From Mucilaginibacter saanensis (GTDB lineage: Bacteria > Bacteroidota > Bacteroidia > Sphingobacteriales > Sphingobacteriaceae): a DNA stretch of 64,000 bases. The notes beneath the pieces are model-generated. The model made no database searches, was not told where the DNA came from, and saw only the letters and a list, made by a program, of their open reading frames with translations. The DNA lies in assembly GCF_014200575.1 (NCBI RefSeq), contig NZ_JACHBZ010000001.1, positions 62,001 to 126,000 of the forward strand, read 5' to 3'. Each line of letters opens with the position of its first letter. Position 1 is the first letter of the stretch. Positions 1,085-64,000 of the stretch are shown here, piece after piece. Both the position numbers and the translations under genes were made by a program.

Positions 1085-1792
1085 ATGATGAAGAACGCTC
1101 TTATTACAGGCTCAACAAAAGGAATGGGCCGTGCTATTTCTATTTCTTTTGCTAATGAAGGATTAAACGTGGCAATTTGTTCGCGAAATGAGCAAGAATT
1201 ATTAAAATTTAAAGATGAGCTGCATATCATCAACCCTAATATTAAGGTTTTTGCACAGGTAGCCGATGGTAGTAATAAATTGCAACTGCTGAAATTTGCT
1301 GCCGATGCACAGCAGGAATTGGGTTTTATTGATGTGGTGGTGAACAATCTGGGTATGTTTAGCCCAAGCAGTATATTGGATGATGCTGACGACGCGCTGC
1401 AGCATCAGATAAACACCAACCTGATGCCCACCTATGAGCTGTACCGTTATTTTGGCAAAACCATGATAGCTGCACGCAAAGGGTATTTTTTTAATATATG
1501 TTCTGTTGCGGCTTTAAACCCCATTCCGCAGGCGGGCACGTATAGTGTAACAAAGTATGCGCTGTTAGGTCTAACAAAGGTAATGCGGCTTGAGATGCAG
1601 GATCATGGTGTAAAGGTAACGGCTATAATTCCCGGATCAACGTTAACGGATTCGTGGAAGGATGCAGTTGTTGATAAAGACACCATGGTATTACCAGAAG
1701 ATATAGCATCGGCAATCATCAATGTATATAAAATGAGCGCGGGTGCCAATGTTGACGAAATGATCATTAAACCTGCACCTGGCCAGTTATAA
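1085..1792 (+). CDS. SDR family oxidoreductase
   Basis: Short-chain dehydrogenase/reductase of 235 aa, a classical SDR length. The cofactor loop TGSTKGMG is at residues 8-15, an NNLG variant of the structural NNAG motif at 87-90, and the catalytic residues are Ser140, Tyr153 and Lys157 (YSVTK). It should therefore bind NAD(P)H and oxidise or reduce a carbonyl/hydroxyl group; 3-oxoacyl-ACP reductases are the nearest general resemblance, but substrate cannot be told. Two ATGs in tandem (1085 and 1088) could both start it. It stands alone, divergent from the Mla operon, with about 220 bases of AT-rich DNA between them. Confidence 0.9.
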   Translation: MMKNALITGSTKGMGRAISISFANEGLNVAICSRNEQELLKFKDELHIINPNIKVFAQVADGSNKLQLLKFAADAQQELGFIDVVVNNLGMFSPSSILDDADDALQHQINTNLMPTYELYRYFGKTMIAARKGYFFNICSVAALNPIPQAGTYSVTKYALLGLTKVMRLEMQDHGVKVTAIIPGSTLTDSWKDAVVDKDTMVLPEDIASAIINVYKMSAGANVDEMIIKPAPGQL

Positions 1793-1825
1793 CAATCATT
1801 TCAAAACGTATTACATAACTGAATT

Positions 1826-2419
1826 ATGGAAAAGAAACTTTATCGCGATGAGCACCGAAAGGTTATAGGTGGTGTTTGCGCGGGTCTGGCCGATTATTTC
1901 GGCGTGGATATAGCCATTATACGAGCCCTGTTTTTAATTACCCTGTTGCTAAAGGGCGGCGGCTTGCTGATTTATCTGGTTTTATGGGCGGTGTTGCCTA
2001 AAAAAGATTATAACTTTTACAATCCGGGTGTTGATTACCGCGTACCTCCGCAGGATCCCTTTAACCCATTTGGCAATGTACCCCCTCAACCCGGTAGTCC
2101 GTTTGCTAATGGCCCTAAAAGGCAGGGCGCCTCAACTGTAGGGATTGTTTTTGGGGTGATACTGATTTTTATAGGTGCATCTTTTTTGCTTAACGAGCTG
2201 CATGTATTCAGCAGTTTGTACTTTGGTAAGTTGTGGCCGCTTATTTTGGTAGCTACAGGTTTTGCGCTAATGGCATCTGGCAACAAAAGCAAACCCTGGG
2301 AAAAAGACAATTGGACTAACACCGATAACAAGGAAGAGGTTAAGGACGACACCCTGAATAAAGAGGCCAACTTTACTAAAGAGGATGACGATCATAAAAA
2401 CCCGCCGCCAACCGTATAG
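1826..2419 (+). CDS. PspC domain membrane protein
   Basis: 197 aa. Residues 1-60 form a PspC domain (LYRDEHRKVIGGVCAGLADYF, then a hydrophobic helix ending VLWAVLPKK). A Pro/Gly/Asn linker follows (about 65-100), then two more membrane segments (about 105-150) of the LiaI/DUF5668 kind, and a very acidic, Lys-rich cytosolic or periplasmic tail. PspC proteins sense or buffer envelope stress. The next gene, 81 bases on, carries the same two-helix module plus a toastrack-like domain, so the two probably act together at the inner membrane. It starts 33 bases after the SDR gene. Confidence 0.9.
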   Translation: MEKKLYRDEHRKVIGGVCAGLADYFGVDIAIIRALFLITLLLKGGGLLIYLVLWAVLPKKDYNFYNPGVDYRVPPQDPFNPFGNVPPQPGSPFANGPKRQGASTVGIVFGVILIFIGASFLLNELHVFSSLYFGKLWPLILVATGFALMASGNKSKPWEKDNWTNTDNKEEVKDDTLNKEANFTKEDDDHKNPPPTV

Positions 2420-2500
2420 AGTAAAAACGATCATGGAACTATGGTGGACTGAACTTAAAACGCAGTTCATGATAAAATTATAACCATAAAAAATATTGAG

Positions 2501-3493
2501 ATGAAAAACGATAAATTAGTTCCGGGTGCTATCCTGGTATGCATAGGGGCCATATTCCTGCTCAACAACTTTGGATATATTGATTTCCATTGGATGAACC
2601 TGCTGCACCTTTGGCCTATATTTTTAATTATGGGTGGTGTAAACCTGGTGTTTGCCGGTAACAGATCGGCCTGGGCCACCGTTTTAAAATTAGGTGTAGT
2701 TGTTTTGGGTTTTGGATTGCTGATGTTTGGGCATTTTGGCGACCGCTTTAATTTTTGGCCAGGTGCTTATAACTTTCATTATAACGATGATAATAACAAC
2801 GATAATGACAGTGATGACGACAGCGACAGCACCGCTACCAATCAAGGGGTAGTTAAAATAGAAGGAAGCAGCATTTTTAATAAAGAGTATACGCCCGATG
2901 CCAAGCTGGCCCGGTTAGATATCAGCGGCGGCGGTACCACTTATAATTTGAGTGATACTACCAGCCAGCTTTTTAAAGCTGAAACCAAGGAGTTTTATGG
3001 TAAGTATGAATTTAACAGCAGCAAGGAAGACTCCGTATACGTGTTGAGCCTTAAAATGAAGAACAACAAAGGCTGGCATTTTGATGCTAATGACAATAAA
3101 TCAAACCTGGCCAATATCAAACTAAACTCCAATCCGGTTTGGGATATTAATGTAGAAACAGGAGCAACAAAACTTGATTTTGATTTAACAAAATTCAAAA
3201 TAAAAAGCTTAACTTTAAAAGGTGGCGCAGCATCATTTAATGTAAAACTGGGCAATCCGGTGGTAAATACCAACGTAGAGGTTTCAACAGGTGTATCAGA
3301 GGTTAATATTAGTGTACCCAAAGAGGCCGCCTGCAGTATCCACACAAGCTCGGGTTTATCATCAAATGAGTTTGGAGGGTTTGATAAAAAGGATAACAGC
3401 CGTTATGAAACCCCGGGCTTTGACGCAGCTAAAAACAAAATATACATCAACATGACGGGTGGTGTATCTGATTTTAAAGTAAACAGGTATTAA
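2501..3493 (+). CDS. LiaF-like membrane protein with toastrack-type C-terminal domain
   Basis: 330 aa. The first 80 residues hold four short hydrophobic segments in the LiaI/LiaF transmembrane pattern (KLVPGAILVCIGAIFLLNNF, then WPIFLIMGGVNLVF). An Asn/Asp/Ser linker of about 20 residues (near 98-113) follows, then a 200-residue beta-rich region with repeated short strands, as in the LiaF C-terminal (DUF2154/toastrack) domain. In Firmicutes LiaF restrains a sensor kinase; here no kinase gene is adjacent, so it may act with the PspC protein upstream. A terminator hairpin lies 48 bases after the stop. Confidence 0.85.
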   Translation: MKNDKLVPGAILVCIGAIFLLNNFGYIDFHWMNLLHLWPIFLIMGGVNLVFAGNRSAWATVLKLGVVVLGFGLLMFGHFGDRFNFWPGAYNFHYNDDNNNDNDSDDDSDSTATNQGVVKIEGSSIFNKEYTPDAKLARLDISGGGTTYNLSDTTSQLFKAETKEFYGKYEFNSSKEDSVYVLSLKMKNNKGWHFDANDNKSNLANIKLNSNPVWDINVETGATKLDFDLTKFKIKSLTLKGGAASFNVKLGNPVVNTNVEVSTGVSEVNISVPKEAACSIHTSSGLSSNEFGGFDKKDNSRYETPGFDAAKNKIYINMTGGVSDFKVNRY

Positions 3494-63160: not shown

Positions 63161-63290
63161 TATTCAATGATACGGTTTTAGATACAAAAAAGGTATTCTT
63201 ATGCCTGTGTCAAATTACAATCATTTCATTTTGCACTACTATACTTTGGTTAAACAGGTGAATCGTTCTCCGGTAAAAATTTCAACCCCC

Positions 63291-63390
63291 TGTTTTCTGC
63301 CGTTTACCGAAAGTTTCAAAAGCTTCGCCAAAAAGCCCTGTTAATAGTTTGGCCTGCACTGCAATTTTGAAGAAAAAACAACATTGCTCT
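63291..63390 (+). promoter_or_regulatory. Shared leader block, unit 1
   Basis: TTTTCTGCCGTTTACCGAAA followed by GTTTC and TTCGCCAAAAAG, ending at the micro-ORF start. GCCGTTTACCG begins at 63299, 92 bases before the ATG. It matches the block at 63552 in sequence and distance. Confidence 0.55.
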
Positions 63391-63486
63391 ATGAAAACTT
63401 TATTTACTCCACTGGTATCGCTGATAGTTTACTTACAGGAACATTCGCCCTTATTTACGCAGTTGATTGGTAACCTGGTTACTTAA
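63391..63486 (+). CDS. Putative 31-codon micro-ORF (unit 1)
   Basis: 31 aa, starts MKTLFTPLVSLIVYLQEHSP and ends with IGNLVT, with few charges. It aligns with the next micro-ORF as MKTL, a hydrophobic run, His, Leu and IGxL. An amphipathic helix is likely. No family known. The evidence that it is real is the paralogue and the shared leader, not length. Confidence 0.5.
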   Translation: MKTLFTPLVSLIVYLQEHSPLFTQLIGNLVT

Positions 63487-63551
63487 AAAAGGAATCGCCA
63501 GATTTATGCTTAAAACCAACAGGTTTAAATAAGCCGGCTCATTTCATCGGT

Positions 63552-63650
63552 ATTTTCAGGCCGTTTACCGGAAGTTTAGCTGTATTCGCCTAAAACCATT
63601 ACTTAAAAAAACATTCTGTTAGCACATTTGAACTATAAATCACAAACACT
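63552..63650 (+). promoter_or_regulatory. Shared leader block, unit 2
   Basis: ATTTTCAGGCCGTTTACCGG then AAGTTTAGCTGTATTCGCCT and AAAACC. GCCGTTTACCG begins at 63560, 91 bases before the second micro-ORF. Together with unit 1 it suggests a duplicated segment of 200-250 bases. Confidence 0.55.
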
Positions 63651-63749
63651 ATGAAAACTTTACTTGCCGTACAAATTATTCATCTGCTCATGAAAGCGGC
63701 AGATCATGCCGGGGCACTGCTCCATTCTATCGGTCACCTCATAAAATAG
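63651..63749 (+). CDS. Putative 32-codon micro-ORF (unit 2)
   Basis: 32 aa: MKTLLAVQIIHLLMKAADHA, then GALLHSIGHLIK. The first four codons are MKTL as in unit 1, and HxxxLxxxIGxL is shared. Four His residues line one helical face. It may be a small membrane-active peptide, a toxin or a regulator; unknown. Confidence 0.5.
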   Translation: MKTLLAVQIIHLLMKAADHAGALLHSIGHLIK

Positions 63750-63809: not shown

Positions 63810-64000
63810 ATGAAAAAGGGAGATACTGTAAACTGGAAATGGGGCGAATCAACTGCCGAAGGCAAAATAGTTAAGACATATCAGGAGCCTGTAACCAAGG
63901 TTATAAAAGGCGCTAAGGTAAAGCGTAACGCCAATAAAGATAAACCTGCCTTTGAAATTGAACAAGACAACGGCAACAAGGTGCTAAAATCAGCAAGCGA
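63810..64000 (+). CDS. DUF2945 (hypervirulence-associated TUDOR) domain protein (partial, 3' end outside window)
   Basis: First 63 residues of a gene cut by the right edge. MKKGDTVNWKWGESTAEGKI, TKVIKGAKVKRNANKDKPAF and EIEQDNGNKVLKSAS match the small DUF2945/HVA1 fold, which runs 65-75 residues in the family, so the stop should be just outside. Function unclear; such proteins often lie near stress or DNA-repair genes. Confidence 0.88.
   Translation, partial: MKKGDTVNWKWGESTAEGKIVKTYQEPVTKVIKGAKVKRNANKDKPAFEIEQDNGNKVLKSAS

Follow-up and report, generated by a model that had tools for sequence, protein, structure and literature searches.

Tandem microprotein genes in Mucilaginibacter saanensis and a putative LytTR-type operator shared with LiaF and PspC genes

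Two conserved microprotein genes

Near the end of the window (the whole stretch of DNA analyzed here, 64,000 nucleotides long, G000:C1:62001-126000, where G000 is the source genome) lie two micro-ORFs in tandem, units 1 and 2, which sequence comparison indicates are nearly certainly conserved microprotein genes. Their promoter element is also found ahead of LiaF and PspC genes, namely at the LiaF operon of the same genome and in 11 of 18 selected regions in relatives, and because of this sharing with LiaF/LytTR and PspC operons we read the products as envelope-stress effectors. The best single reading, held here with moderate confidence, is that the microproteins are stress-induced amphipathic membrane helices under LytTR/LiaF-type control. 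The locus contains the following features.

63282..63329, + strand: unit 1 operator-like element, three repeats at 21-bp steps, the first weak; includes the block; 3 mismatches to TTYAYCG-N14-TTYACCG-N14-TTYRCC
63366..63369, + strand: TTTG of the presumed unit 1 -7 promoter box (Bacteroidota type), 36 nt past the element and 21 nt ahead of the ATG
63391..63486, + strand: unit 1 microprotein ORF, 31 aa; 10 homologues, codon-position bias, conserved P7, LQEH, Q24 and L29
63543..63590, + strand: unit 2 operator-like element, three TTYAYCG-like repeats at 21-bp steps; includes the block; 0 mismatches
63627..63630, + strand: TTTG of the presumed unit 2 -7 promoter box; spacing fixed across homologues
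63651..63749, + strand: unit 2 microprotein ORF, 32 aa; 79 homologous loci, dN/dS about 0.10; one predicted helix, residues 2-31
63810..64000, + strand: DUF2945 / Hva1_TUDOR gene, truncated at the window end (Pfam PF11160; tblastn with its 63 residues)

The original prediction, made from the letters of the window, had placed the micro-ORFs at 63391-63486 (31 aa) and 63651-63749 (32 aa), each following a shared block at 92 and 91 nt, and both the coordinates and the distances were borne out. In the ORF list, unit 1 is nested in a longer TTG-started frame, with its ATG at 63391. The units repeat each other in register over 18 nt of the block (94%, 63299/63560) and over 17 nt of the start region (94%, 63389/63649). 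The combined block pattern, allowing at most 3 mismatches, has 2 matches in the 64 kb as opposed to 0 in 100 shuffles, and with homologues at 79 loci for unit 2 and at 10 other loci for unit 1 the claim that the duplication exceeds chance stands. The peptide pattern HxxxLxxxIGxL attributed to both units does not extend to unit 1, which reads HxxxFxxxIGxL and among whose relatives the IG is not kept. The DUF2945 gene was suspected from the start of being unrelated; it adjoins the micro-ORFs only in part of the relatives and is probably not part of the micro-ORF unit.

Distribution and selection in the unit 2 family

The search for homologues that had been proposed as a check yielded 79 loci for unit 2 and 10 for unit 1. 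For unit 2, a first profile was built from nine peptides read downstream of the block. With a cut-off of E <= 0.1 it found matches in 81 of the 149 genus genomes, 73 of which still match at E <= 6e-5, and by construction the nine are among the matches. Among the 84 matches in these 81 genomes, we did not count those in G000:C3 and G035 (internal stop), in G034 and the second in G148 (partial), or the second in G183 (partial, L109), which is outside the 79-locus set. Once identical contexts were removed, 79 loci in Mucilaginibacter-group genomes were retained. All 79 are full-length open ORFs, in a set that was gathered as short ATG-to-stop ORFs and that excludes interrupted copies. The peptides have 32 residues at 77 loci and 34 at the other 2, and they are best conserved at the C-terminus, GHL[IVM][KS], where residues 28-32 read GHLVK (34), GHLIK (33), GHLIS (6), GHLMK (4), GHLVS (1) or GHMIS (1). 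Over 440 pairs with DNA identity of at least 70%, differences at codon positions 1/2/3 number 2859/903/6070, and the median dN/dS is 0.10 (353 of the 440 pairs having a finite dS); judged from these substitutions, the family is under strong purifying selection. Chance ORFs are ruled out by the homologues at 79 loci together with the codon-position bias.

A larger profile of 72 peptides, run at E <= 0.01 on 399 genomes of the taxonomic family, matched 54, which all lie within Mucilaginibacter, one of 25 genera. The micro-ORF mostly occurs once per genome, in a conserved place. Within the genus, 137 genomes carry the ABC transporter gene discussed below, and 59 of these have no counted peptide match; 40 of the 59 were read, one (L147) with merely 19 nt upstream, while the 12 genus genomes without an ABC match lie outside this set of upstream loci. 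At 25 of the 39 readable loci a diverged ORF of 28-34 residues (starting, for example, MTTLLTLP or METLLT) lies behind the same element, and at 14 of the 39 there is none. The larger profile also matched G019, G104 and G138, which had no counted match to the first. As far as these comparisons reach, the family extends beyond what the first profile matches, with a sequence that drifts fast and a length and promoter that stay. Upstream of the ABC gene in G016 (L125) and G011 (L131) we observed a 28-residue variant, MKTLLIN...LTN, with a 3-mismatch element ahead of it in G016 and none detected in G011.

Unit 1 as a diverged paralogue

The relatives of unit 1 at 10 other loci have M1, K2, P7, LQEH, Q24 and L29 in common, and differences at codon positions 1/2/3 number 476/282/793 in 55 pairs. 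Aligned with each other, the unit 1 and unit 2 family profiles score 17.9, compared with at most 13.6 in 200 column shuffles, while the hhalign probability is only 37%. On this profile match unit 1 is a diverged paralogue of unit 2, and the match together with the shared promoter points to old tandem duplication as the likely source of the pair. We also considered that unit 1 might be a decayed copy, which is ruled out by its 10 relatives under selection.

A promoter element with the layout of a LytTR operator

Upstream of the 79 micro-ORFs, the sequence follows the pattern TTYAYCG-N14-TTYACCG-N14-TTYRCC-N36-TTTG and departs from its 24 fixed letters by 0-5 mismatches; in 1580 shuffled regions the mismatches number at least 7. 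The TTTG, which we take to be the Bacteroidota -7 promoter box, lies 19-31 nt from the ATG over the 79 loci. The block of the original prediction is present in both units, and its extent was underestimated, since it continues upstream into three repeats (63282-63329 and 63543-63590); the third repeat is poor in several unit 1 relatives. The block had been taken for a leader. Its place ahead of the -7 box should leave it outside the transcript from that promoter, and we read it as part of an operator common to other genes.

LytTR sites are described, in the available part of PMC4847170, as two repeats of 9-11 nt that stand 11-13 nt apart, with a period of about 21 bp. The pattern fitted to the 79 promoters has the same period, with fixed 21-bp steps, and three phased repeats upstream of a TTTG would have the layout of a LytTR operator. 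We consider LytTR-type activation of the micro-ORFs probable.

A leader RNA or a dual-function RNA, the latter raised by the original prediction, was set aside for lack of support. Rfam gave no match, and over the 60 nt 3' of the stop conservation does not exceed that of distant flank (0.584 versus 0.595 over 809 pairs, which were picked by a coding identity of 0.70-0.88 that fixes their coding value by choice). Terminators were found 3' of the micro-ORF at 3 of 79 loci and in 7 of 790 shuffled sequences, and these counts show neither a monocistronic nor a shared transcript.

The element at other genes

Across the 149 genus genomes, a search allowing up to 3 mismatches returned 639 element matches, compared with 59 for the reversed pattern, although at this threshold it also picks up chance sites and TTCACC tracts (e.g. 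G000:C9:46708). Every one of the 149 genomes has at least one match, and in 104 of them the reversed-pattern control has zero. The source genome has 8 matches and 0 control matches. Two of the 8 are those of units 1 and 2, two stand before a LiaF/LiaF/DUF4288/His_kinase/LytTR operon, and one each belongs to an OMP_b-brl_3 gene, a Beta-lactamase-family serine hydrolase and a TM2-domain protein; the eighth, within a TTCACC tract, was judged false.

The operon with two element copies (L213, G000:C1:281500-287500) is made up of two LiaF-TM genes, DUF4288, a LytS-type His_kinase and LytTR. One of its two LiaF-TM proteins carries LiaF-like_C, and the operon is a candidate envelope-stress two-component system. 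Its LytTR gene is the only one of 14 in the source genome that is near element sites, which are of another spacer class.

Among relatives we read 18 regions, chosen among the matches listed and favoring good matches, so that the tally of genes is not a census. In 11 of these 18 the element stands before a LiaF or PspC operon. It precedes LiaF genes in L188, L190, L197 and L201, two of which (L188 and L201) also display His_kinase and LytTR. PspC genes follow it in L186, L189 and L192, and SDR genes with PspC behind them in L194, L195, L199 and L200; these SDR genes were named by eye, and PspC, like the LiaF, TM2, cyclase-domain and FAD-binding genes, by Pfam. TM2 genes follow it in L193 and L198, and an OMP gene, named by eye, in L185. 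We also observed it before genes with a cyclase catalytic domain (L184, L191) and before FAD-binding genes (L187, L196), a hint that the regulon is wider or that several LytTR regulators are involved.

Compared over 110 nt, two OMP-gene copies share 85% of positions with the unit 2 promoter, and three PspC promoters share 72%, 64% and 44% (44% being L192); identity falls to 36-42% for the LiaF-operon promoters of G101 and G119. The low identity to these LiaF promoters and to the L192 PspC promoter means that another LytTR paralogue could own the micro-ORF class. One of the 85% copies lies before the OMP_b-brl_3 gene of the source genome (L203, G000:C7:136741-136828, minus strand), where an 8-codon ORF (MKKTAYII) occupies the place of the micro-ORF; similar copies occur in L006, L007 and L185. 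At 1085-3493 of the window, SDR, PspC/LiaF-TM and LiaF-like genes (Pfam) stand in a row. This PspC operon is without the element (best site 10 mismatches), which the corresponding operon in relatives has. Given the shared element, but also the low identity to LiaF promoters and the element-free PspC operon, we consider it likely that the micro-ORFs belong to a Lia/Psp-type regulon, whose acting LytTR protein may be that of the LiaF operon or a paralogue.

Properties and proposed function of the microproteins

AF2 predicts the unit 2 peptide as one helix spanning residues 2-31 (mean pLDDT 83.5, pTM 0.37). The amphipathic character that had been proposed for the peptides is upheld by a hydrophobic moment that is on average 2.8 standard deviations above that of shuffled peptides. 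The mean net charge is +1.5, His not counted, and the Kyte-Doolittle value is 1.77 in thirteen diverged members versus 0.94 in the 79. The predicted helix and its properties fit a helix that lies on the membrane surface or spans the membrane, with which the earlier idea of a membrane regulator is compatible; for small helices of such composition, a helical prediction is also what a non-membrane protein can give.

We infer the identity of the regulator, the stress induction, the membrane location and the molecular action of the microproteins, and the proposed mechanism would be as follows. Each unit would have its own promoter and encode a single-helix microprotein, of 31 residues in unit 1 and 32 in unit 2. 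As regulator we propose a LytTR response regulator, probably the product of the operon that also encodes the LiaF-type proteins and the LytS-type kinase at 281.5-287.5 kb of G000:C1, and it would bind the three phased repeats 36-84 nt upstream of the TTTG box. Under cell envelope stress this regulator would activate units 1 and 2, and the peptides would associate with the inner membrane as amphipathic helices, either along its surface or inserted in it, where they might alter membrane properties or bind a membrane complex (LiaF/PspC or the neighboring ABC-2 exporter). Counting against this mechanism are the low promoter identities in G101, G119 and L192, the PspC operon of the window that lacks the element, the 14 of 39 ABC loci with no micro-ORF behind the element, and the poor third repeat in several unit 1 relatives. 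A more far-reaching form of the proposal, which we regard as unlikely, is a Lia/Psp-type system of Mucilaginibacter working through LytTR, with the fast-diverging family of 31-32-residue amphipathic microproteins as a main effector; in some species a tandem pair might co-assemble or gate the ABC-2 exporter, and the family would provide the membrane protection given elsewhere by PspA.

The ABC transporter neighbor and alternative explanations

An ABC ATPase gene lies downstream of the micro-ORF, on the same strand, in 75 of the 79 loci, at 55-2133 nt (median 255), and in 41 of the 75 it starts less than 300 nt behind the micro-ORF stop. At the four remaining loci the ABC gene is about 2.5 kb away (G113) or far away (G118, G125), or the contig ends (G178). 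The ATPase of the source genome is past the window, at window-equivalent position 64095 (G000:C1:126095), and is followed by a permease in ABC-2 families that include drug and peptide exporters. ATPase genes of this kind occur in 137 of the 149 genus genomes and in 11 of the 25 genera sampled, and at 20 ABC loci outside the genus no micro-ORF of the unit 2 family was found ahead of the ABC gene. Outside the genus we also observed a weak two-repeat match before the ABC gene itself (L174) and a reverse-strand match before an unrelated 20-residue ORF (L166). The transporter as a necessary partner of the peptide is ruled out by this wide occurrence of the ATPase and by the 20 loci. The link between peptide and transporter may matter in Mucilaginibacter; the exporter does not depend on the peptide.

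The micro-ORF could instead encode a leaderless amphipathic peptide akin to phenol-soluble modulins or bacteriocins, and the ATPase and ABC-2 permease would export it or protect the producer from it. The position and strand of the ATPase in 75 of 79 loci, the permease families, the amphipathic helix with its positive mean charge and the fast drift of the sequence at constant length all favor this explanation. However, the transporter reaches well beyond the peptide, both in the genus (137 of 149 genomes) and in the 11 genera, the two genes are far apart in G118 and G125, and the NCBIfam delta-lysin models gave E values of only 0.084 and 0.089, above a useful cut-off and in 1 of 72 peptides, so that we judge an exported peptide improbable. 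Micro-ORF translation might instead control transcription or translation of the ABC genes, the peptide itself having no job. Starts within 300 nt of the stop in 41 of 75 loci, and the C-terminal GHL[IVM][KS] as the best conserved part, favor such a leader peptide, but selection acts on amino acids along the whole peptide, with helix periodicity, and there is no fixed coupling, as the distance varies from 55 to 2133 nt, DUF2945 or other genes may intervene, and G118 and G125 have the two far apart. Moreover, at 4 of the 79 loci (one being at a contig end) the stretch examined contains no ABC gene, and what comes downstream of unit 1 is unit 2's own promoter; we give the leader peptide little credence.

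In being small, helical and present in tandem copies, the peptides of units 1 and 2 have a general likeness to type I toxins. A type I toxin-like peptide, its translation blocked by an antisense RNA, is nevertheless hard to reconcile with a mostly single copy per genome at a conserved place, with a conserved activator-type promoter common to other genes, or with a 3' flank that is unconserved; Rfam gave no match, nor did plasmid and phage records searched with the peptides, and we see scarcely any likelihood in this explanation. The stress-induced membrane helix under LytTR/LiaF-type control is the reading that we carry forward.

Significance and comparison with known systems

Genes so short are easily missed in annotation, and here a family of them, each with a nearly invariant promoter, extends across a genus. 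That the peptides match no known family, as first noted, agrees with searches of Pfam, NCBIfam and PDB, none of which gave a significant match, and a search of the open-licence PMC literature, by title and start of abstract, found no paper on these peptides or the operator. If the link to LytTR, LiaF and PspC is true, it would add a small effector class and a readable envelope-stress operator in Bacteroidota, and one motif would predict regulon members genome by genome.

Phenol-soluble modulins combine a leaderless amphipathic helix with the Pmt ABC exporter and a LytTR regulator. The microproteins are similar in having a predicted amphipathic helix without a leader, an ABC-2 exporter gene nearby and putative LytTR control; they differ in that they have no family match (best E 0.084, in 1 of 72) and in that other genera have the exporter and lack the peptide. 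Like the operators of LytTR proteins of the AgrA and YpdB type, as presented in the available part of PMC4847170, the putative operator places direct repeats ahead of the promoter at a period of 21 bp, whereas it has three repeats, not two, and TTYAYCG was not matched to a published site.

The stress-induced small membrane protein YohP of E. coli has 27 aa (PMC12719787, available part). Proteins of the YohP type, as far as that part describes them, resemble the microproteins in being very short and helical, without a catalytic domain, and would share with them production under stress and, potentially, an ability to alter the membrane; units 1 and 2 differ in being tandem paralogues with a putative LytTR-type operator. 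The available part of PMC11237479 describes Lia/Psp envelope-stress systems with LiaI-LiaF-TM, PspC and two-component systems, and in that part of its account we found no such microproteins. The likeness is that LiaF-TM, the LiaF C-terminal domain, PspC and a two-component system here carry the promoter element of the micro-ORFs. Compared with those systems, what differs in Bacteroidota is a LytS-type kinase with a LytTR regulator, and microproteins of 31-32 residues as putative members.
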